64,000 bases of DNA from NCBI GenBank assembly GCA_024698045.1, contig JAILRS010000028.1:1-64000 (forward strand), given 5' to 3'. The DNA is from Selenomonadaceae bacterium. GTDB lineage: Bacteria > Bacillota > Negativicutes > Selenomonadales > Selenomonadaceae. Each line of letters begins with the position of its first letter. Position 1 is the stretch's first letter. The notes under the pieces are model-generated. The model saw only the letters and a list, made by a program, of their open reading frames with translations. It was not told the origin of the DNA and did no database searches. The position numbers and the translations under genes were made by a program. Positions 2,628 to 51,530 of the stretch are shown here, one piece after another.

Positions 2628-2823
2628 TAATCGCTGCGGTTGAAATAAAATTGACTTGGGGTGTTGATTACGGTTGAGGCCGCCCACGGATGGGCGGCCG
2701 CCGGCAACGTGACGTTGCATCCTGAAATCGCGACAAAGTTTTTGCCAACCGTAATTAATGACCGCGATTGTAAAAATACTTAAGTTGACTTTGAACACTT
2801 TCGGTAACCGACTGAAAGTGCCG
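2628..2823 (+). repeat. Intergenic palindromic repeat, copy R1 (short form)
   Basis: This is the shortest of four related repeats. It begins with a block ending in TTGACTTGGGGTGTTG and has the GC hairpin GGCCGCCCA/TGGGCGGCC at about 2681-2702. It then jumps directly to the CAACGTGACGTTG palindrome and the ACCGTAATTAATGACCGCG block, and ends at TTGACTTTGAA plus a terminal hairpin with CACTTTC/GAAAGTG arms (about 2796-2821). The middle modules of the longer copies (the ACATGGATGT palindrome and the CTTTTCTTTG hairpin) are absent. No gene is supported in this stretch. Confidence 0.8.
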
Positions 2824-33835: not shown

Positions 33836-34508
33836 AAATCGCCGCGGTTGAAATAAAAATTGACTTGGGGTATTGCTTACGGAAGAGGCCGCCCACGGAC
33901 GGGCGGCCGCCGCACGCTCAAAACATGGATGTTTTGTATGCGGCACATCCGACACGCGTTATCTACACACTATGGATACCGAACGCTACCGCCCCTGCGA
34001 GGTGCCCTTTCTTTTGTTACTTTTCTTTGGACGAGCAAAGAAAAGGCAACGTGACGTTGCATCCAGAAATCGCGTCGAAGTTTTCGATAACTTCAGTCAA
34101 TCATCGCGGTTGAAATAAAATTGACTTAGGGTATTGCTTACGGAAGAGGTCGCCCATGGATGGGCGGCCGCCGCACGCTCAAAACATGGATGTTTTGTAT
34201 GCGGCACATCAGACACGCGTTATCTACACACTATGGATAACGAACGCTAACGCCCCCGCGAGGCGTCTTTTCTTTTGTTACTTTTCTTTGGACGAGCAAA
34301 GAAAAGTATTCACAGCCAATAAAAAATTTTTCTTAACTAAGTTAGAAATTGCCGCCACGTTTAGCAACAAATCAATCGCAGCAAAGAAAAGGCAACGTGA
34401 CGTTGTATCCAATAGTCGCGATAAAGTTTTCGACAACCGTAATTAATGACCGCGCTTGTAGCGATACTTAAATTGACTTTGAGTCCTTTTGTTAACCGTA
34501 CGAAAGGA
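33836..34508 (+). repeat. Intergenic palindromic repeat, R2: two tandem long copies
   Basis: Two copies lie head to tail: R2a about 33836-34100 and R2b about 34101-34508. Each runs GCGGTTGAAATAAAA, TTGACTT(G/A)GGGTATTG, the GC hairpin (33887-33908; 34148-34169), the CAAAACATGGATGTTTTG palindrome (33919-33936; 34179-34196), a variable stretch, and the CTTTTCTTTG/CAAAGAAAAG hairpin (about 34019-34044; 34281-34306). A CAACGTGACGTTG module follows. R2b alone has an extra block (about 34307-34370) and the full end with TTAACCGTACGAAAGG. Open frames here are not supported as genes: none has a ribosome binding site, and all three frames are open in places. Confidence 0.88.
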
Positions 34509-34509
34509 G

Positions 34510-34543
34510 CAAAAAAAATACCCGCCGAAATCAATCGACGGGC
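34510..34543 (-). terminator. Terminator of the glucose PTS gene
   Basis: CCCGCCG (34521-34527) pairs with CGACGGG (34536-34542) and is followed on the minus strand by T residues (A-run 34511-34518). It is located 47 bp after the EIICBA stop codon. Confidence 0.87.
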
Positions 34544-42850: not shown

Positions 42851-43588
42851 ATGAAATCTATCTGCGTAATTCCTGCGCGTTATTCCTCAACGCGCTTGCC
42901 GGGTAAACCGCTCAAAGATATTTGCGGTCTGCCGATGATATGTCGTGTATGGCAACGCGCCAGCAAAGCGGAATCGGTATCCGAAGTGGTTGTCGCCACG
43001 GATGACGACAGAATTTTGCAAGCGGTCGAAAAAAATTCGGGTCACGCCATGATGACGCGCGCCGATCATAAAACGGGTACCGACAGACTTGCCGAAGTTG
43101 CCGAAAAATTTCCCGATGCCGATGTTGTTGTCAATGTTCAGGGCGATGAACCTTTGATAGATCCCGGGTTGATTGATAATCTTGTTGCCGAATTTGCTAA
43201 GGACGACGAATTGCAGATGGCTACCGTCGCGACGGAATTAAACGACGAAAACGATATGAAAAACCCGAACAACGTCAAAGTTGTTTTGGACAGATACAAT
43301 GACGCGCTTTATTTTTCGCGTTCGCTTATTCCCTACCCGAGAAATGCCGGCATCGCGTCAGTATTCAAACACATAGGCATTTACGCCTACCGCAGAAATT
43401 TTTTGATTGATTACGCGAAAATGGAGCCGACACCCTTGGAGCAAACCGAATCGCTCGAACAACTTCGCGCCTTGGAGAACGGATTCAAAATTCGCGTGAT
43501 AAAAAGTTCGTGTCGTTTCGTAGGTGTGGACACCGAGGAAGATTTACGGCTTGTCAACGAAATTTATCGACGGGAGGAGATTGCATGA
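42851..43588 (+). CDS. kdsB: 3-deoxy-manno-octulosonate cytidylyltransferase
   Basis: This cytosolic enzyme activates KDO to CMP-KDO for lipopolysaccharide inner core synthesis. The nucleotide-binding start [15 protein letters not shown] and the [10 protein letters not shown] motif identify it. ATG 42851 matches family starts, yet no good ribosome binding site precedes it; AAAGGA at 42790 is too far away, so the true start could be an earlier GTG. The product has 245 residues. The stop overlaps the kdsA start (ATGA). Confidence 0.94.
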
Positions 43589-44403
43589 ACAAAGTCAAAG
43601 TCGGAGATATAGAATTCGGCGGCGGCAAACTTGTCTTGCTTGCAGGACCTTGCGTACTTGAAGGTTACGAGCGTAGTTTGATGATTGGGCGTCGCGCCAA
43701 AGAAATCGCCGAACGTTTGGGCATCCCCTACATTTTCAAGGCGTCCTTTGATAAGGCAAATCGTTCGTCGATAGAAAGTTACAGAGGTCCCGGGCTTGAA
43801 GAGGGCTTGAAAATTTTAGCGGATATCAAACGCGAATTGAATGTCCCGATAGTCACGGATATTCACGAATCGTATCAGGCGGCACGTGTTGCGGAAGTCG
43901 CCGATATCCTGCAAATTCCCGCGTTCCTTTGCAGACAAACCGATTTACTTGTCGCGGCGGCGAAGACCGGCAAAGTTGTCAACGTCAAGAAGGCGCAATT
44001 TTTATCCGCGAAAGATATGACTAACGTTGTCGGGAAATTGAGAGCGAGCGGCACCGAAAAAATTTTGCTGACCGAACGCGGTACTTCCTTCGGTTATAAT
44101 AATTTGGTTGTCGATATGCGCGGCTTACCGATTATGCGCGGCTTTAATTGTCCCGTGATTTTCGACGGCACTCACAGCGTACAATTACCGGGAGGCGCAG
44201 GAACAAAGTCGGGCGGTCAACGTGAATTTGTCGAATACCTTGTAAGAGGTGCTTGCGCGGTTGGAATTGACGGATTATTCCTCGAGGTGCACGATAAACC
44301 CGAAGAAGGTCTTTCCGATGGTGCTAACATGATTCCGCTTGATAAACTCGAAAAACTTTTGGCGGATGCTTTGGCGATTCACAATGTCGCGAAAAATTTG
44401 TAA
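43585..44403 (+). CDS. kdsA: 3-deoxy-8-phosphooctulonate synthase
   Basis: This enzyme condenses phosphoenolpyruvate with arabinose-5-phosphate to form KDO-8-phosphate. Motifs include [22 protein letters not shown], and [16 protein letters not shown] 43585 overlaps the kdsB stop by 4 bp and has GGGAGGAGA upstream. The product is 272 residues. It is the second gene of the KDO operon, with kdsD 27 bp downstream. Confidence 0.96.
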
Positions 44404-44430
44404 GACCATAAAAAATTTTGGAGTACTGAT

Positions 44431-45399
44431 ATGATAAGAGAAAAGGCGATTGAAACTTTAAAGATAGAGGCGTCGGCGGTTGCCGCATTGGAAAATCGCA
44501 TAGATGATGAATTTGTCGAGATAGTCAAGAAAATAATGTCATGTAGTGGTCGCGTCGTGGTGACCGGCATGGGAAAATCGGGACATATCGGCAAAAAAAT
44601 TTCCGCTACTTTGGCGTCAACGGGTACGCCGTCATTTTTCATGCATCCTGCCGAAGCTTATCACGGCGACTTGGGTATGTTAACCGAGCGCGATATTTTG
44701 ATTGCGATTTCAAACAGCGGCGAATCTTCCGAGATTGTAAACATCTTGCCGGTAGTACGCAGAATCGGCGCGTTAATCATAGCAATGAGCGGCAAGAGAA
44801 CTTCAACTTTGGGTAACAACTGCGATTATTTTATCGACATAGGAGTTGAGCGTGAAGCGTGTTCGTTGGGACTCGCGCCTACTGCCTCGACAACTGCAAC
44901 TTTGGCAATGGGTGACGCATTGGCGATGGCTCTTATGGACGAAAGAAATTTCACATCGAAAGATTTTGCGTTATTCCACCCCGGCGGCGCGTTGGGCAGA
45001 AAACTTTTGTTGAGTGTCGGCGATGTCATGCATAGCGGCGAAGATAATCCTATCGTCAAGATTGGAGCTACGGCAAAAGATGCGTTGTTCGAGATGACCG
45101 CAAAAGGTTTGGGCGCGGTATCGGTTGTGGATGAACACGATAAATTTGTCGGACTTGTCACCGATGGAATTATTCGCCGTGCCTTGGAGAAGAGTCGCAG
45201 TTTCTTGGACGAACCTGTAGAACATATTATGTTTGAAAATCCATTGATTATCAGTGCGGATAAATTGGCGGCGGCAGCACTTTCGGTCATGGAGAAACAT
45301 AAGCCGCGTCCCGTTACGGTTTTGCCCGTTGTCGACGAGAATAAATATCCCGTGGGCATGATTCACTTGACCGATTTGTTGCGTCAAGGTGTCGTGTGA
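44431..45399 (+). CDS. kdsD: Arabinose-5-phosphate isomerase (KpsF/GutQ family)
   Basis: This enzyme converts ribulose-5-phosphate into arabinose-5-phosphate, the KDO precursor. A SIS domain (about residues 30-165, with GMGKSGHIGKKISATLASTG and ISNSGESSE) is followed by two CBS domains (about 205-320). The protein is 322 residues. Repeat R3 begins right after the stop and separates this gene from kdsC. Confidence 0.94.
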   Translation: MIREKAIETLKIEASAVAALENRIDDEFVEIVKKIMSCSGRVVVTGMGKSGHIGKKISATLASTGTPSFFMHPAEAYHGDLGMLTERDILIAISNSGESSEIVNILPVVRRIGALIIAMSGKRTSTLGNNCDYFIDIGVEREACSLGLAPTASTTATLAMGDALAMALMDERNFTSKDFALFHPGGALGRKLLLSVGDVMHSGEDNPIVKIGATAKDALFEMTAKGLGAVSVVDEHDKFVGLVTDGIIRRALEKSRSFLDEPVEHIMFENPLIISADKLAAAALSVMEKHKPRPVTVLPVVDENKYPVGMIHLTDLLRQGVV

Positions 45400-45401
45400 T
45401 G

Positions 45402-45776
45402 CTCCTTTCGTTGGTTAACAAAAGGAGTCAAAGTCAACTTTGTAATTGCTATAAGCGCGGTCATTAATTACGGTTAATGAAAACTTTGGCGCGACAGCAG
45501 GATGCAACAACCTCGCTACGGTTTCTAAGTTAGTTAATGAATACTTTTTATTGGCTGTGCATACTTTTCTTTGCGTGTCCAAAGAAAAGTAACAAAAGAA
45601 AGGACGCCTCGCAGGGGCGGTAGTAATCGTAGCCGTAGTGTGTAGGCTACCCGTGTCGAATGTGCCGCATACAAAACATCCATGTTTTGAGCGTGCGGCG
45701 GCCGCCCATCCATGGGCGGCCTCAACCTTAATCAACACCCCAAGTCAAGGTTACGACTTTGTTATTTCAATCCGTG
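45402..45776 (-). repeat. Intergenic palindromic repeat, copy R3, between kdsD and kdsC
   Basis: This copy is read on the minus strand. From the right it has the CCCCAAGTCAA end, the GC hairpin (45700-45721), the CAAAACATCCATGTTTTG palindrome (45672-45689), the CTTTTCTTTG-type hairpin (45564-45589), the TTAACTAACTTAGAAAC block, a degenerate CAACGT-type module and the CCTTTCGTTGGTTAACAAAAGG terminal hairpin beginning at 45404. The 401-bp gap contains only this repeat and the kdsC ribosome binding site. Confidence 0.87.
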
Positions 45777-45800
45777 ACTGACTTCAAAGGAGGCAGGCAA

Positions 45801-46373
45801 ATGAAAATTTCCGGTGACGCTCTTGACAGGGCGAAGAAAGTTAAGCTAATAATATTCGACGTTGACGGAGTACTGACCGACGGCGGAATTTATCACAGCG
45901 GTAACGGCGAACTGTTCAAGGCTTTTCATTGCCGCGACGGATTCGGAATAACGTTGTTACACAGTTGCGGAATAAAGACGGCGATAATAACGGGCAGGAC
46001 TTCGACAATGACCGAATGGCGCGCCAAAGAGTTAAACATTTCAGCCGTCATGCAGGGTCAAATGAATAAGCGTGACGCTTACAAAAAAATTAAGATGCAA
46101 TTCGGTTTGAGTGATGATGAAATTGCTTATGTGGCTGATGATTTGATAGATTTGCCGGTATTGGTGCAGGTCGGATTTCGTGCGGCGGTAGGTGATGCCG
46201 CGCCCGAAGTTGTCGACCGTGCTCATTTTGTCGCGAATAATTTCGGTGGTCGCGGCGCCGTTCGTGAAGTGATAGAATTTATTTTGAAAGCCAAAGGACT
46301 TTGGCAGGAGATTATCGAACGCTACACGACGCCCGAGTTTGACGATAAAGAGTTGACTGCACTTAATCGGTAA
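45801..46373 (+). CDS. kdsC: 3-deoxy-manno-octulosonate-8-phosphatase
   Basis: This HAD-family phosphatase releases KDO from KDO-8-phosphate. The catalytic motif is DVDGVLTDGG, followed by KAFHCRDGFGI, TGRTS, and DDLIDLPVL. ATG 45801 has AAAGGAGG upstream; a longer frame extends into the repeat but is unlikely. At 190 residues it is standard length. It begins just after repeat R3 and leads into lpxL-lptC-lptA-lptB-lptF. Confidence 0.95.
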   Translation: MKISGDALDRAKKVKLIIFDVDGVLTDGGIYHSGNGELFKAFHCRDGFGITLLHSCGIKTAIITGRTSTMTEWRAKELNISAVMQGQMNKRDAYKKIKMQFGLSDDEIAYVADDLIDLPVLVQVGFRAAVGDAAPEVVDRAHFVANNFGGRGAVREVIEFILKAKGLWQEIIERYTTPEFDDKELTALNR

Positions 46374-46392
46374 AATATTTTCGGAGGATGAC

Positions 46393-47325
46393 ATGCTTTA
46401 CAATACGCTGATGATAATGAGCAAGATAATTCGATTAATACCCTATGACGTGTTACTTTTTTTGGGTCGCGTCTTAGGGAATTTGTATTACATGCTTGTC
46501 AAAAAACAGCGTGAGCGAGCAGTAGCGCAGATGATGCCGGCGTTGAATATCGGCGAAGAGGAAGCGCGTCAACTCGTGCGAAAATCTTTCGTGAATTTGG
46601 CGCGCAATGTGCTGGATATATTTTACATGCCGAATCTGAACGAAAAAAATTTATCGGAATACATAGAAATAGATCATCTCGAACGCATGAAATCGGCACT
46701 TGCCGAAGGTCATGGCGTCGTAGTGTTGACGGGTCATATCGGTACGTGGGAATGGTTGAGCGCGTCATTTACATTGAACGGATTGCCCGTGACGGCGATA
46801 GCGAAATTGCAACCAAATGCGGAGTATTCGCGAGTGCTGGACGATTTACGCGCAACGATTCACGTGGAAATATTTAACCGCGGAACAAATGAATTACGCG
46901 CGGCAGGACGAGCATTGAAGGACGGAAAAATTTTGGGCTTTTTGGCGGATCAAGATGCGGGACCGGGCGGAGCGTTTATAAATTTTCTGGGTAAGGTAGC
47001 ATCAACGCCGTTGGGACCTGCGGTTTTCTCAAGACGTTTCAACGCGCCCGTAGTGCCTGCATTTATAATTCGTAAGGAAGACGGTCGGCATATTGTGAAA
47101 ATCGGTGAGCCAATGCATTTCGAGGATACGGGCGACACCGATGCCGATTTATTACGCTTCACGGAGAAAATGACTGCAATATTGGAAAACGTAATACGCG
47201 AAAATCCGACGCAATGGCTGTGGTTTCAAAAACGTTGGAACACGCCGCCCGAACGTCAAAACAAAAATAAACATCACACGGTAAAAGTGCGAAAAGAAGC
47301 GGCGTCGGAGGCAGATGAATCATGA
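46393..47325 (+). CDS. lpxL: Lipid A biosynthesis lauroyl acyltransferase (LpxL/HtrB family)
   Basis: This inner-membrane enzyme adds secondary acyl chains to KDO-lipid A. A membrane segment near residues 5-35 precedes the catalytic motif GHIGTWEW (Hx4E). LADQDAGPGGAFINFLGK and a later PVVPAFIIRK match the family. It has 310 residues. It lies 19 bp after kdsC and overlaps lptC by 4 bp. The C-terminal ~25 residues are basic and probably disordered. Confidence 0.93.
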   Translation: MLYNTLMIMSKIIRLIPYDVLLFLGRVLGNLYYMLVKKQRERAVAQMMPALNIGEEEARQLVRKSFVNLARNVLDIFYMPNLNEKNLSEYIEIDHLERMKSALAEGHGVVVLTGHIGTWEWLSASFTLNGLPVTAIAKLQPNAEYSRVLDDLRATIHVEIFNRGTNELRAAGRALKDGKILGFLADQDAGPGGAFINFLGKVASTPLGPAVFSRRFNAPVVPAFIIRKEDGRHIVKIGEPMHFEDTGDTDADLLRFTEKMTAILENVIRENPTQWLWFQKRWNTPPERQNKNKHHTVKVRKEAASEADES

Positions 47326-47903
47326 GCACACGCGGGAAAATATTTGCGGCAATAGCGACGATTTTTTTTGTGTGCTTGGTAGTGTGGGCAGTGCGTACCG
47401 TGCCCGATGCTCCGCCGTTCCAGGAAAAGATAGAACCGCCCAAAGTCATGGAATACGAAGGCAATACAATCGTCGAGGAGAAAGACGGAAAAATAATTTG
47501 GGAATTGAGTTCGGATAAAATTCGCGTCGATTCGACAACACAGGATATCGAACTTACAGGCGTCAAGGGAAAATTTTATCAGTACGAACAGGGCGAAGAC
47601 GGCGAAGAAGTAAAGACATGGGAACTAATCGCCAAGACCGGAATTTATTATCAGGTTGACAGTAAAGTCTACGTTGAGGGCGATGTGGATTTTTCCAACA
47701 GCGACGGCGCAAAACTCAAATGTGACAGCCTTGAATGGTTATCGAAAGACGACAAAGTGTATGCCAACGGAAATGTAAAAATATCCAAAGAGGATATGAG
47801 AGCATACGGCGATATGGCTTATTCGGATAACGGTTTTGAACATTTCGGGCTTGTGGGTAACGCAAAAGTTTTAAAGGGCGTCGAGGACGACGAAGATATT
47901 TGA
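47322..47903 (+). CDS. lptC: LPS export protein LptC
   Basis: This bitopic inner-membrane protein receives LPS from LptBFG and hands it to LptA. One N-terminal membrane segment (about residues 7-24) is followed by a periplasmic beta-jellyroll domain. The protein has 193 residues, with GKFYQY and VDFSNSDGAKLKCDSL strands typical of the YrbK fold. The start overlaps the lpxL stop (ATGA). Sequence conservation in this family is low, so position supports the call. Confidence 0.88.
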   Translation: MSTRGKIFAAIATIFFVCLVVWAVRTVPDAPPFQEKIEPPKVMEYEGNTIVEEKDGKIIWELSSDKIRVDSTTQDIELTGVKGKFYQYEQGEDGEEVKTWELIAKTGIYYQVDSKVYVEGDVDFSNSDGAKLKCDSLEWLSKDDKVYANGNVKISKEDMRAYGDMAYSDNGFEHFGLVGNAKVLKGVEDDEDI

Positions 47904-47940
47904 TATAATCCCTGTAAAAAAATTCGTGGGGAGTTTGAAG

Positions 47941-48972
47941 ATGACTACGATAAAAAAAATCTGCGCAGCGATGGCGGCAACAATGGTCGTCAGTTCTTCG
48001 GCAATGTTAATCGTTTCGGCGGAACCTGTCGAAAAGGAAAAATTGCCTTCCGAAGTAAATGCCGACGTTATCGAATACGATATGAAAACCGGATTGGTAA
48101 CGGCGGAAGGAAATATCTTACTCAAGCACGGTACGACAAAGGCGACGGGTCTACACGCGCTTTTTAATGTGAATACGAAAGAGGCACATTTAATCGGCGA
48201 CGTAATAGTAGTGCGTGAGGATATGCGTATAACTTGCAATTCTCTGATAAATAACGGTCAGGGACATATGGCGGCGGACGGGAATGTAATAGCGATACAA
48301 ACTGTTACTCCGACGGAAAAATATCCCGAAGGAGATACGCGAACATTCACGGGCGAACACGTCGATTATTTCCCCGATGATAAGAAACATGTCGTGATAC
48401 CTGCCGGCGGTATGGCAGAAAGTAAAGTAGAGGGAACATTTACCGCCGATCATATGGAAGGCTGGATTGACGACGAACATTATATCGGCACGGGTAACGC
48501 GCATTTGGTGAGCAAGACGCGCAATTTGGAGGCAGGCGGCAATCAAGTCGATTATTCGGGCAAAGAGGCCGGCAAAGCAGTCCTTTCGGGTAATGCATGG
48601 GCGTATCAAGATAACAATACAATTCGCGGCAATCGTCTTGTCGTTTACATGGCGGACGACGGAAATTTAAAGGCGGAGGCTCCTCCGAAACTTGACTTGT
48701 CTCAATTCCCGAATCCGTTCGCAATCGACAGTAAACCGGTAGAAAATAAATCTGCGCAGGTTACGGATAAAACCGTAGAAAAAATTTCCGAAGATGTTGA
48801 TAAAGTTTCCGAGGACATCAAAAAAGTTACCGGCGAAAAAAATGTTGATAACAAGGCGGTTGAAATTGACAAACCGTTCGGCAATAAGGTTACCGAAGAA
48901 AAATCCGCGGAAGAAGATATAACAATCAATCCCGAAGATATAAAAAACGAGGCGGCCGAAAATGAACATTGA
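47941..48972 (+). CDS. lptA: LPS transport periplasmic protein LptA (OstA-like) with long acidic tail
   Basis: This periplasmic bridge protein carries LPS to the outer membrane. A signal peptide (about residues 1-28) precedes an OstA domain that runs further than usual, with repeating beta strands to about residue 240 (VNADVIEYDMKTGLVTAEGN at the start). The last ~100 residues are a Glu/Lys/Asp/Val-rich tail with repeated EKISED-DKVSED-like segments, not part of the fold. E. coli LptA is about 185 residues. ATG 47941 has GGGGAG upstream. lptB overlaps by 11 bp. Confidence 0.88.
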   Translation: MTTIKKICAAMAATMVVSSSAMLIVSAEPVEKEKLPSEVNADVIEYDMKTGLVTAEGNILLKHGTTKATGLHALFNVNTKEAHLIGDVIVVREDMRITCNSLINNGQGHMAADGNVIAIQTVTPTEKYPEGDTRTFTGEHVDYFPDDKKHVVIPAGGMAESKVEGTFTADHMEGWIDDEHYIGTGNAHLVSKTRNLEAGGNQVDYSGKEAGKAVLSGNAWAYQDNNTIRGNRLVVYMADDGNLKAEAPPKLDLSQFPNPFAIDSKPVENKSAQVTDKTVEKISEDVDKVSEDIKKVTGEKNVDNKAVEIDKPFGNKVTEEKSAEEDITINPEDIKNEAAENEH

Positions 48973-49681
48973 GGCGCGGAAATTGGTCAAGTCGTTCAAA
49001 GGGCGTACGGTTGTAAACGAAGTATCACTGAAAGTTGAAACGGGACAAGTTGTCGGATTATTGGGACCGAACGGCGCAGGCAAAACAACTTCATTCTATA
49101 TGATAGTCGGATTGGAACGCCCCGATTCGGGCGAAGTTTTTATTTCCGATGTTAACATATCGAAACTGCCGATGTACCGCCGCGCAGAATTGGGGATAAG
49201 TTATCTGACACAAGAGGCATCGATTTTCCGCAAGCTGACAGTCAAAGAAAACATCATGGCGATTTTGGAAACATTGGATTTGAATAAAGAGCAGCGTAAC
49301 CAAAAACTTGATGAACTGCTAAACGAATTCAGCATAAAACACGTGGCGACGCGTAAGGGAACAGAATTATCGGGCGGTGAGCGGCGACGCGTGGAAATCG
49401 CGCGGTGTTTGGCACTTGAGCCGAAATTTATTTTGCTTGACGAACCTTTTGCCGGTGTCGATCCGTTGGCTGTCGCCGATATTCAAGAAATCATCAAGTA
49501 CCTGAAAAATCGCGGCATGGGTATTTTGATAACAGATCATAACGTCCGCGAAACTTTGCATATCGTAGATCACGCTTATATTTTGAGTGAAGGCAAAATT
49601 TTGCTCGAGGGTTCCGCGGAAGAAATTGCCAACAGTGAAATTGCCAAAAAATTCTATCTCGGAGCCAACTTTACTTTGTAA
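48962..49681 (+). CDS. lptB: LPS export ABC transporter ATP-binding protein LptB
   Basis: This cytosolic ATPase drives LPS extraction from the inner membrane. Walker A GPNGAGKTTS, signature LSGGERRRVE, Walker B FILLDEPFAGVDPLAV and ITDHNVRET are present. The length of 239 residues is typical. It overlaps the end of lptA by 11 bp, which suggests translational coupling. The permease gene follows 70 bp downstream. Confidence 0.96.
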   Translation: MNIEARKLVKSFKGRTVVNEVSLKVETGQVVGLLGPNGAGKTTSFYMIVGLERPDSGEVFISDVNISKLPMYRRAELGISYLTQEASIFRKLTVKENIMAILETLDLNKEQRNQKLDELLNEFSIKHVATRKGTELSGGERRRVEIARCLALEPKFILLDEPFAGVDPLAVADIQEIIKYLKNRGMGILITDHNVRETLHIVDHAYILSEGKILLEGSAEEIANSEIAKKFYLGANFTL

Positions 49682-49750
49682 GAAACGGCGTGATGTTATT
49701 AAAATTTTTATCGGATTGCGCGTTGCGCGAAACTCGGCGGGGGTATTTTA

Positions 49751-50845
49751 ATGCGCTTCAGGATACTTGACAGATATATTTTGCAGGAAGTTATATTTGC
49801 TTTTTTGTTTGCGATATGTGCGTTCACGGCGGTATTTATCGGCTCGGGGACGCTCTTTAAAATTTCAAGGTATATCACTGATTACGGCGCAAGTTTTACT
49901 TCCGTACTGAAAATTTTTGTTTACGGGCTGCCGAGTATAATCATGTGGACATTTCCGATGTCAATGCTATTGTCAACACTGCTGACATTCGGGCGTCTTT
50001 CCAGCTCCAGTGAAATTACCGCGATGAAGTCATGCGGAATAAGTTTCAGCAGAATAGCCGCGCCCGCGATTTTCCTCGGTGTCGTCGTCACAATAGTCGC
50101 GATTCTATTTAATGAACATGTTGTGCCGTGGGCTAATACCGCCTATAACAATGTTGTTTACTTTGAGATTCAGGGCAATACGGAATTAAAATCGCAGGAT
50201 CATATTATCGTTAAGGAAATTACGGGCGATAAGATACAGCGACTTGTTTACGCGCGCGAATACAAGGCAAGCGAAGAAAAATTGGAAGGCGTAACGATGC
50301 AAGTGTTTAACGAGGACGGCAAAGTTACACATGTGGAGAATGCGACTTATGCGGAGTGGAAAAATTCCGAGTGGATTATGCACGACGGAATGATTTACGA
50401 TTTGGATGACGAAGAGCGTACTCACACAATGAAATTCGATCGTCAAATTTTACCTGTCAAAGCAAGTCCACGGCAAATAGTCCGTGAGCAAAAGAAGACA
50501 GAAGAATTGACGATGGCGGAATTGAAAGCGCAAATAGAGATAATGAAATCGCAGTACGCCAATACAAATAAATTGGAAACGGAATTGTATCAGCGTATAA
50601 CAGTACCGATGGCAAGTTTGATTTTCGCGTTGATAGGTGTTCCGCTCGGTTTACAGCCGACAAGAACTCCGTCATCAATGGGTTTCGCGTTGAGTGTCGT
50701 AATAATTTTTCTGTACTATACAGTAATGACTTTGGCGAATGCAATCGCGCGTAGCGGAGCGATTCCGCCAATGTATGCCGTTTGGATTCCGAATATAATC
50801 GGATTGATAGCCGGCATTGTATTAATTTATCGAGCATCAAAATAA
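49751..50845 (+). CDS. LPS export permease, LptF/LptG (YjgP/YjgQ) family
   Basis: This inner-membrane permease of the LPS exporter has three N-terminal and three C-terminal membrane segments around a periplasmic beta-jellyroll domain (about residues 130-265). It has 364 residues. Typical features are LDRYILQEV at the start and PMASLIFALIGVPLGLQ. Only one such gene lies here, whereas proteobacteria use an LptF and LptG pair; the second may be elsewhere or this one may form a homodimer. It cannot be called F or G with confidence. Confidence 0.9.
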   Translation: MRFRILDRYILQEVIFAFLFAICAFTAVFIGSGTLFKISRYITDYGASFTSVLKIFVYGLPSIIMWTFPMSMLLSTLLTFGRLSSSSEITAMKSCGISFSRIAAPAIFLGVVVTIVAILFNEHVVPWANTAYNNVVYFEIQGNTELKSQDHIIVKEITGDKIQRLVYAREYKASEEKLEGVTMQVFNEDGKVTHVENATYAEWKNSEWIMHDGMIYDLDDEERTHTMKFDRQILPVKASPRQIVREQKKTEELTMAELKAQIEIMKSQYANTNKLETELYQRITVPMASLIFALIGVPLGLQPTRTPSSMGFALSVVIIFLYYTVMTLANAIARSGAIPPMYAVWIPNIIGLIAGIVLIYRASK

Positions 50846-50860
50846 ACGGAGGAAATTTAA

Positions 50861-51082
50861 GTGAGAAAATTTTTGATATCAGTAATTACGTTTGCAGCTA
50901 TTGTAACTACATTTGCTACGGTTTTATCAGCCGCTTACGTAGGTAACAGCAACACGGGAAAATTTCATTATTACGATTGTTATTTTGCAGGTAAGATGAA
51001 TCCCAACAACCGCATTAGTTTCAGCACACGTGACGAGGCAATTAACAGAGGTTATACTCCCTGTAAGCGTTGCAAGCCGTAA
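50861..51082 (+). CDS. Small secreted Cys/His-rich protein
   Basis: This 73-residue protein has a signal peptide (about residues 1-25) and then a compact domain with His36, Cys40, Cys68 and Cys71 (HYYDC ... CKRCKP), which looks like a zinc-binding HxxxC...CxxC site. The end motif EAINRGYTPCKRCKP resembles the Ada-like metal-binding tail found at the C-termini of some secreted nucleases; here it stands alone. GTG 50861 has GGAGG upstream. It is 15 bp after the LPS permease, so they may share a transcript. Its role is unknown. Confidence 0.75.
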   Translation: MRKFLISVITFAAIVTTFATVLSAAYVGNSNTGKFHYYDCYFAGKMNPNNRISFSTRDEAINRGYTPCKRCKP

Positions 51083-51088
51083 AATTTT

Positions 51089-51530
51089 TACTCCTTTCGT
51101 ACGGTTAACAAAAGGCAACGTGACGTTGCATCCTGAAATCGCGATTAGGTATTCGATAATCGAAAGAGATGACCGCGTTTGCAACGTATAGAATTTTCAG
51201 TGCGGCGGTTCCCCTTTCGTACGGTTAACAAAAGGAGTCAAAGTCAACTTAAGTTGCGATTAGTTTTTGCAGAACGTGGCGGCAGTTTCTAACTTAGTTA
51301 GGAAAAATTTTTTATTGGCTGTGAATACTTTTCTTTGCTCGTCCAAAGAAAAGTAACAAAAGAAAGGACGCCTCGCGGGGGCGGTAGTATTTAGTAGGCG
51401 AAGTGAGCAGGTAAAACATGTCGAGTGTGCCGCATACAAAACATCCATGTTTTGAGCGTGCGGCGGCCGCCCGTCCATGGGCGGCCTCTTCCGTAATCAA
51501 CACCCCAAGTCAATGTTACTTTTACTGTTG
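51089..51530. repeat. Intergenic palindromic repeat, mosaic R4 between the lpt cluster and fmt
   Basis: This copy is a mosaic. The first part (about 51089-51200) carries, on the plus strand, the terminal CCTTTCGTACGGTTAAC hairpin, the CAACGTGACGTTG palindrome and GATGACCGCG. A second CCTTTCGTACGGTTAAC element at about 51212 starts a full copy on the minus strand, with the TTATTGGCTGTGAATAC block, the hairpin at about 51329-51354, the ACATCCATGT palindrome (about 51437-51454) and the GC hairpin (about 51464-51486). It ends near CACCCCAAGTCAA. The 520-bp gap has no supported gene. Confidence 0.85.

Follow-up and report, generated by a model that had tools for sequence, protein, structure and literature searches.

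What are the hairpin-rich repeats that occupy intergenic gaps in the genome of a Quinella-like member of the Selenomonadaceae, and what might they encode? We address this question for the family of elements exemplified at positions 33,836 to 34,508 of a 64,000-nucleotide stretch of contig JAILRS010000028.1 (assembly GCA_024698045.1), hereinafter the window, in which a first-pass annotation had delineated at least four related loci (here R1 to R4). The interpretation that we favor, and to which we give a slightly better than even chance of being correct, is that these elements are mobile, non-coding intergenic repeats encoding a decoy RNA for the global regulator CsrA, with a triplex pseudoknot in its 3' part.

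A mosaic family of intergenic repeats

Comparison of the R2 locus (33836-34510) with the whole 2.08 Mb genome (40 contigs) using BLAST detected 83 matches, which are distributed over both strands and cluster into about 40 loci; the family is thus not confined to the window. Individual motifs are likewise found on both strands in excess of expectation, namely CAAAACATGGATGTTTTG (8 matches vs 0.11 expected), TACTTTTCTTTG (7 vs 0.55) and CAACGTGACGTTG (12 vs 1.9). Mapping of the modules over the fetched loci showed that the elements have a single polarity and the fixed order A-B-D-C. Module A is a GC hairpin, GGCCGCCC-ANGGAY-GGGCGGCC; module B starts with the hairpin CAAAAC-ATGGAT-GTTTTG and also contains the CTTTTCTTTG hairpin; module D begins with TATTCACAGCC; and module C extends from CAACGTGACGTTG to TTAACCGTACGAAAGG. 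Modules A, B and D are each dispensable, C is missing as well in a few copies, and tandem A-C units occur. The junction of C with A or B falls at several different points, so that the family is best described as a mosaic. The ordered modules that the first-pass annotation had recognized at the four loci are all present, and their occurrence in both orientations with variable losses holds genome-wide. Of the modules it had described as palindromes, the first two are hairpins with an AYGGAY loop rather than perfect palindromes. Several contigs terminate in or near an element copy, as expected because repeats break assemblies.

A conserved pseudoknot with a predicted triple helix

The CTTTTCTTTG hairpin (S2), correctly noted in the initial annotation, is only a part of a larger structure that includes an upstream pyrimidine tract (L1) and a tetranucleotide, both of which had been overlooked. 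In a by-eye alignment of the matches, the tetranucleotide 5' of the pyrimidine tract complements the first bases of the S2 loop (helix P1). Given that the partner of this tetranucleotide lies in the loop of a conserved stem, the two helices are predicted to form an H-type pseudoknot. Over 56 distinct canonical copies, P1 has on average 3.45 of the 4 possible pairs, compared to 1.96 with shuffled partners (maximum 2.39 in 5000 shuffles). Changes on both sides of this helix were found in 42 cells of alignment A2; shuffling gave 13.9, with none of 500 shuffles reaching 42, and sliding the partners gave 3-12. This count rests on copies from outside Quinella; the genome analyzed here contains the P1 variants CGTC/GACG, TGTC/GACA, TGCC/GGCA and CGCC/GGCG. 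That the pseudoknot is under selection is therefore well supported by this comparison of sequences, and the covariation speaks for the structured RNA that had been among the options initially considered. In the copies from Bacteroidales, S2 and L1 are retained, there is no clear P1, and the loop is longer and invariant (TGTGGTTGA); these copies may represent a separate subtype.

The sequences of L1 (CTTTCTTTTG) and of the 5' arm of S2 (CTTTTCTTTG) are mirror images, and L1 read 5' to 3' is the parallel Hoogsteen complement of the purine arm CAAAGAAAAG, with U on A and C on G. In H-type pseudoknots, such as those of telomerase RNA and SAM-II, L1 runs along the major groove of S2 in precisely this direction, and a major-groove triple helix is therefore predicted. 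In stems retrieved with patterns in which nothing but the outermost bases of S2 and the final bases of L1 was specified, the triple rule is obeyed at 696 of the 711 inner positions; when 31 distinct stems are each counted once, it holds at 133 of 140 positions, whereas 20000 permutations gave 75.7 on average and never more than 99. Of 36 purine-arm G positions, 34 are matched by a C in L1, compared to 12.5 on average after permutation. The parallel (mirror) prediction fits 14 of 20 asymmetric tracts perfectly. Examples of matched changes include S2 CTTCTCTTTG with L1 CTTTCTCTTG, the reciprocal S2 CTTTCTCTTG with L1 CTTCTCTTTG, and S2 CTTTTCTC with L1 CTCTTTTG. Direct-repeat or antiparallel pairing of L1 was considered and rejected, being perfect in 0 of the 20 asymmetric tracts at the same register and in 2 at any register. 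The comparative data thus lend good support to L1 tracking S2 as a putative third strand.

Phylogenetic spread and link to TwoAYGGAY RNA

A scan of named genomes with a pattern consisting of the CTTTTCTTTG hairpin and an upstream TTTTG(N)TTA revealed, among the matches listed, the pseudoknot in Gammaproteobacteria, Betaproteobacteria, Desulfobacterota, Bacteroidota and Selenomonadaceae. Of 380 Negativicutes genomes, 86 match the pseudoknot pattern, with up to 174 matches, two congeners having 140-174; the variant of the genome analyzed here escapes this pattern. The element did not turn up in E. coli genomes when a 56-nt pseudoknot query was used in a distant blastn search, and plasmids yielded short matches only. 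In Burkholderiales, Silvimonas and Nevskiaceae, the place of the GGA hairpins described below, 5' of the pseudoknot, is taken by another conserved hairpin, flanked by TGTTTGAG...GAGTT, as though one ligand site had been exchanged for another. In gammaproteobacteria, a short CTCGCC-N-GGCGAAA-type hairpin is located directly 3' of the pseudoknot. Other families of Negativicutes carry short versions, CTTTTGG-GGCAATG-CCAAAAG with GGCCTAGACC upstream, which are possibly a reduced form of the same pseudoknot.

At the Rfam gathering threshold, only tRNAs are detected in the window, and the pseudoknot has no Rfam match at permissive E-values. For TwoAYGGAY RNA (RF01731), the sole match in the genome falls on an element (25.5 bits, E 0.1), and the score in the window is 20.7 bits; the gathering threshold is reached in gammaproteobacterial copies that carry the same pseudoknot (43-69.5 bits). 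The architecture of RF01731, two adjacent AYGGAY-type hairpins, is present at 33887-33908 and 33919-33936 and at the equivalent positions of other copies. In gammaproteobacteria, the pseudoknot is situated about 80 nt 3' of TwoAYGGAY. In a Pseudomaricurvus genome, 10 of the 13 matches to the pseudoknot pattern (one of which is probably due to chance) have an RF01731 match 78-131 nt upstream on the same strand, and in Psychromonas, the RF01731 model aligns over its full length and ends at the first bases of the pseudoknot. TwoAYGGAY as described thus appears to be the 5' part of the element. A putative outer stem encloses both GGA hairpins in the minimum free energy fold (z -3.9); the external stem of TwoAYGGAY is poorly conserved (PMC4333381). 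RF01731 belongs to clan CL00106, that of CsrB, and is classified in Rfam as Cis-reg; its role as a CsrA ligand was previously proposed by Gardner and Eldai (PMC4333381).

Judging by sequence, the GGA hairpins of the genome analyzed here are a divergent, below-threshold relative of TwoAYGGAY. The initial statement that no described family has this set of modules accordingly fails for the GGA part, which is a relative of a described RNA family with a published CsrA hypothesis, and stands for the pseudoknot and its predicted triplex, which have no counterpart in Rfam or in the papers searched. Rfam and the open-access papers that were searched contained no description of the triplex pseudoknot, its spread across phyla, its fixed position 3' of TwoAYGGAY or the mobile composite, nor did those papers contain a matching sequence string; this absence is not proof that the composite is undescribed.

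GGA-loop hairpins and CsrA

The GGA loops in this genome are ATGGAT, ATGGAC, ACGGAC, ACGGAT, AAGGAT, AGGGAT and AAGGAC, all of them ANGGAN hexaloops closed by a stem. RsmE has been observed in complex with a hairpin of this ANGGAN-hexaloop type, and RUACARGGAUGU is the consensus for CsrA derived by systematic evolution of ligands by exponential enrichment (SELEX) (PMC7652899). When the loops of stable hairpins within 200 nt 5' of the pseudoknot were surveyed, GGA was the commonest of the 64 trinucleotides, being present in 57 of 117 elements, followed by TGG with 31, the runners-up being overlapping words. The GGA loop is kept while the stem sequences differ almost completely between taxa, and the loops themselves are well supported by comparison.

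Nearly all genomes of the genus have csrA, and for this reason the association of the gene with the hairpins was examined across phyla. A total of 63 genomes were scored: csrA was found in 22 of the 23 with GGA hairpins vs 14 of the 40 without them (Fisher p 1.2e-6), and the lone csrA-negative genome with GGA hairpins is a metagenome bin that is not complete. In the sample, Burkholderiales, Bacteroidota and most Desulfobacterota have neither GGA hairpins nor csrA. The genome analyzed here encodes csrA (contig C8, 56744-56902), and the gene was found in 59 of 66 congeners, including all 14 of high quality. Taken together with the loop sequences, these observations make the GGA hairpins candidate CsrA-binding sites.

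Insertion polymorphism and genomic context

Two of the copies in the window lie within operons and can be compared to orthologous sites. R3 is located 2 nt after the kdsD stop codon, in antisense, and the gap between kdsD and kdsC is 401 bp. Among the 24 congeners with both genes in reach, this gap is 0-3 bp in 16 and 19-89 bp, free of the element, in 5; in the remaining 3, the junction is occupied by other copies of the element, of which at least one is oriented opposite to R3. The gap between an open reading frame (ORF) resembling Ada and fmt, which contains R4, is 520 bp, compared to 0-73 bp in 23 congeners, none of which has an element there. The empty junctions, 21 of 24 in the first case and 23 in the second, suit the mobile element that had been among the options initially offered: both tested copies are absent from most or all of the congeners examined, and one site carries other copies in three. 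That the elements insert is well supported by this comparison, insertion being the simplest reading of the sequence data. A target-site duplication, which together with terminal inverted repeats characterizes miniature inverted-repeat transposable elements (MITEs), was sought at the kdsD site of this genome, and none of 9 bp or more was found. In Dyella, Pseudomaricurvus and Thalassocella, all 14 neighboring pairs of copies less than 1 kb apart are inverted doublets, divergent 5'-5' with the pseudoknots outside.

One of the kdsD-kdsC gaps examined contains two element copies and, at its end, a divergent second version of the 3' end of kdsD that differs synonymously, which suggests an old duplication or allelic recombination at the insertion. 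A further dispersed repeat of the genus is the micro-repeat CAATTAGGAATTAGGAATG, located in intergenic gaps of Quinella.

Element copies in the window

Module mapping shows that R1 (2636-2818, forward strand) consists of A and C only: A, with one GGA-loop hairpin GGCCGCCC-ACGGAT-GGGCGGCC, spans 2636-2701, and C, from CAACGTGACGTTG to the terminal hairpin, spans 2703-2818. R2, also on the forward strand, had been described as two tandem copies, and two A-B units are indeed present, with D and C following only the second. In the first unit, module A (33844-33910, by module mapping) contains GGA hairpin 1, GGCCGCCC-ACGGAC-GGGCGGCC (33887-33908), and is followed by GGA hairpin 2, CAAAAC-ATGGAT-GTTTTG (33919-33936), both being candidate CsrA sites; the pseudoknot comprises the P1 5' strand TGCC (34003-34006), which pairs imperfectly with the loop GACG, the third strand L1 CTTTCTTTTG (34007-34016), and the S2 hairpin CTTTTCTTTG-GACGAG-CAAAGAAAAG (34020-34045), with the 3' strand of P1 in its loop. 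The second unit consists of module A (34106-34171, with GGA hairpin 1 at 34148-34169), GGA hairpin 2 (34180-34197) and a predicted triplex pseudoknot (34264-34306), in which P1 CGTC occupies 34264-34267, L1 34268-34277, the S2 5' arm 34281-34290 and the S2 3' arm 34297-34306, with GACGAG as the loop. According to the module mapping, it is followed by D (34307-34392) and by C with the terminal hairpin region CTCCTTTTGTTAACCGTACGAAAGGAG (34391-34512).

The other two copies are on the reverse strand. R3, between kdsD and kdsC, is complete, reading C-D-B-A (45400-45748), with the predicted triplex pseudoknot at 45564-45606, GGA hairpin 2 at 45672-45689 and GGA hairpin 1 at 45700-45721. R4, between the Ada-like ORF and fmt (51088-51522), has an extra, inverted C fragment (51114-51186), the predicted triplex pseudoknot at 51328-51370, GGA hairpin 2 at 51437-51454 and GGA hairpin 1 at 51465-51486. 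The genes around R3 (43510-50845) form what we take, from sequence, to be a kdsA-kdsD-kdsC-lpxL-like-lptC-lptA-lptB-lptG-like run, presumably the set for 3-deoxy-D-manno-oct-2-ulosonic acid (Kdo) and lipopolysaccharide export expected of a diderm Negativicute. Between lptG and fmt, at 50900-51083, is the end of an ORF that resembles an Ada-type metal-binding peptide (...YTPCKRCKP) and adjoins fmt in at least 23 congeners.

Proposed function and alternative explanations

Under the CsrA decoy interpretation, transcription from A to C would yield, from each full copy, an RNA with two domains. The 5' domain would present two ANGGAN-loop hairpins, or more in tandem copies, that would engage both faces of a CsrA dimer. 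The 3' domain would fold into the H-type pseudoknot, in which the P1 tetranucleotide pairs with the loop of the 10-14 bp S2 stem and the pyrimidine tract L1, between P1 and S2, lies in the S2 major groove as a run of U.A-U and C+.G-C triples. The elements would spread by insertion into gene junctions, presumably with the help of a mobilizing enzyme, and would be transcribed by read-through from neighboring genes; the dispersed copies might then jointly titrate CsrA. By analogy with triplex stability elements and repetitive extragenic palindromic (REP) hairpins, the triple-helix pseudoknot could shield the RNA from 3'-5' decay.

Several observations weigh against this interpretation. We infer sense transcription of the elements, probably as read-through; the orientation of copies relative to neighboring genes is near random (judged by rough ORF calls) and the two window copies located within operons lie antisense to them, so that many copies would not be read in the GGA sense by a neighboring gene. 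P1 is imperfect in one of the window copies (34003-34045), and S2 is invariant in this genome, which means that the triple covariation derives from relatives. The copies of this genome score under the RF01731 gathering score (25.5 and 20.7 vs 43 bits), and their GC stems of 7-10 bp exceed in strength most of the SELEX ligands of CsrA (compared with PMC7652899). The association of csrA with GGA hairpins is confounded with ancestry, and 14 csrA-positive sampled genomes have pseudoknots without GGA hairpins, so csrA is not sufficient. Finally, G.U and A.C mismatches in the GGA stems are similarly frequent (17 vs 14) and provide no strand signal.

The main rival is a DNA-level element similar to MITEs or REPINs, in which the folds form in single-stranded DNA and are recognized by a transposase acting in trans, CsrA binding, if any, and the GGA loops being incidental. 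The dispersal on both strands, the insertion polymorphism at both in-operon sites, the near-random gene orientation and the consistently divergent close pairs (14 of 14, pseudoknots outside), reminiscent of REP doublets, all fit this model. However, a transposase signal does not predict that GGA hairpins track csrA, and no transposase was linked to the element. Furthermore, the base of S2 contains U-A and U.G nearly equally (TTA/TAA 87, TTA/TGA 76), which is tolerated in RNA on this strand only, although this might reflect one inherited change. We regard the DNA-level model as a serious but rather unlikely explanation. The interpretation of each copy as a dedicated CsrB-like small RNA (sRNA) gene or a cis-regulatory leader could appeal to the membership of RF01731 in the CsrB clan, its Cis-reg label, the paired GGA loops and the earlier proposal of TwoAYGGAY as a CsrA-binding sRNA (PMC4333381). 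It appears highly improbable given the roughly 40 copies in this genome, the 140-174 pattern matches in two congeners, the lack of a consistent gene or orientation 3' of the copies, and the antisense copies inside operons; the near-random orientation fits dispersal better than a leader role.

A mobile element similar to short interspersed nuclear elements (SINEs), the 3' pseudoknot of which serves as the recognition site for a reverse transcriptase that inserts complementary DNA copies, would account for the fixed polarity, for the conserved 3' part with different 5' modules attached in this genome, and for the proximity of the pseudoknot to the 3' end in gammaproteobacteria. It is nevertheless improbable: the constant 3' module here is C rather than the pseudoknot, the pseudoknot is missing from many copies, the search at the kdsD site revealed no target-site duplication, and no reverse transcriptase was linked to the element, none having been searched for. 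Functionless, neutral repeats with symmetry generated by slippage or gene conversion are disfavored, and we give them hardly any credence. The low-complexity T-rich tracts and species-specific sequence families would be compatible with such an origin, but the double changes in P1 and the matched placement of C in L1 across phyla are far above those in shuffles, and none of the 20 asymmetric tracts is compatible with a direct-repeat origin when the register is fixed.

The CsrA decoy interpretation can be taken further, to a tentative and rather doubtful generalization. The elements might represent a cross-phylum class of mobile elements, the RNA of which ends in a decay-protecting triplex pseudoknot and which, in hosts with csrA, acquired CsrA-binding hairpins, such that a selfish repeat tunes, or is tamed by, a global regulator via copy number and read-through. 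Should the triplex form, bacteria would possess a natural RNA triple helix of wide distribution, with tens to more than 100 copies per genome in some hosts, and its compensatory triple changes would offer a ready model for triplex folding. The proposed RNA would also complete TwoAYGGAY, whose Rfam model ends just before the pseudoknot, and would provide a candidate CsrA decoy system for Negativicutes and a case of a mobile repeat bearing binding sites for a global regulator.

Comparison with known systems

Among the described RNAs, the elements most directly recall TwoAYGGAY (RF01731, CL00106), with its two adjacent AYGGAY-loop hairpins and proposed binding of CsrA (PMC4333381). In contrast to that family, the copies of this genome reach 20-25 bits where 43 are required for gathering, the Rfam model extends no further than the first pseudoknot bases, and the Rfam entry is for a Cis-reg RNA rather than a dispersed mobile repeat. 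The decoy RNAs CsrB, CsrC and RsmXYZ similarly contain several GGA-loop hairpins per RNA and belong to the same Rfam clan, but are encoded by one or a few dedicated sRNA genes, characterized by their own promoter and terminator and by Gac-type control, whereas the elements described here are present in tens of intergenic copies with few sites each and additionally contain a predicted triplex pseudoknot. As mosaics of intergenic, hairpin-rich, multi-copy modules, with inverted doublets in some hosts, the elements resemble bacterial interspersed mosaic elements (BIMEs) and REPINs, MITE-type repeats and the modular BOX elements of Streptococcus; they differ from all of these in the strand-specific GGA loops and the pseudoknot. 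BIMEs and REPs are characterized by a REP hairpin bearing a GTAG-type tetranucleotide and by a RAYT transposase. Major-groove triplex pseudoknots are known from telomerase RNA and the SAM-II and preQ1-II riboswitches, and triplex stability elements include the element for nuclear expression (ENE) of MALAT1. As in the pseudoknots of telomerase RNA, SAM-II and preQ1-II, L1 of the elements is predicted to lie in the S2 major groove and to form U.A-U and C+.G-C triples with the same strand polarity. Unlike the known triplex pseudoknots, to which they have no sequence relation, the elements have an S2 of 10-14 bp with up to about 8-10 predicted triples and occur in a multi-copy, mobile context in several bacterial phyla.
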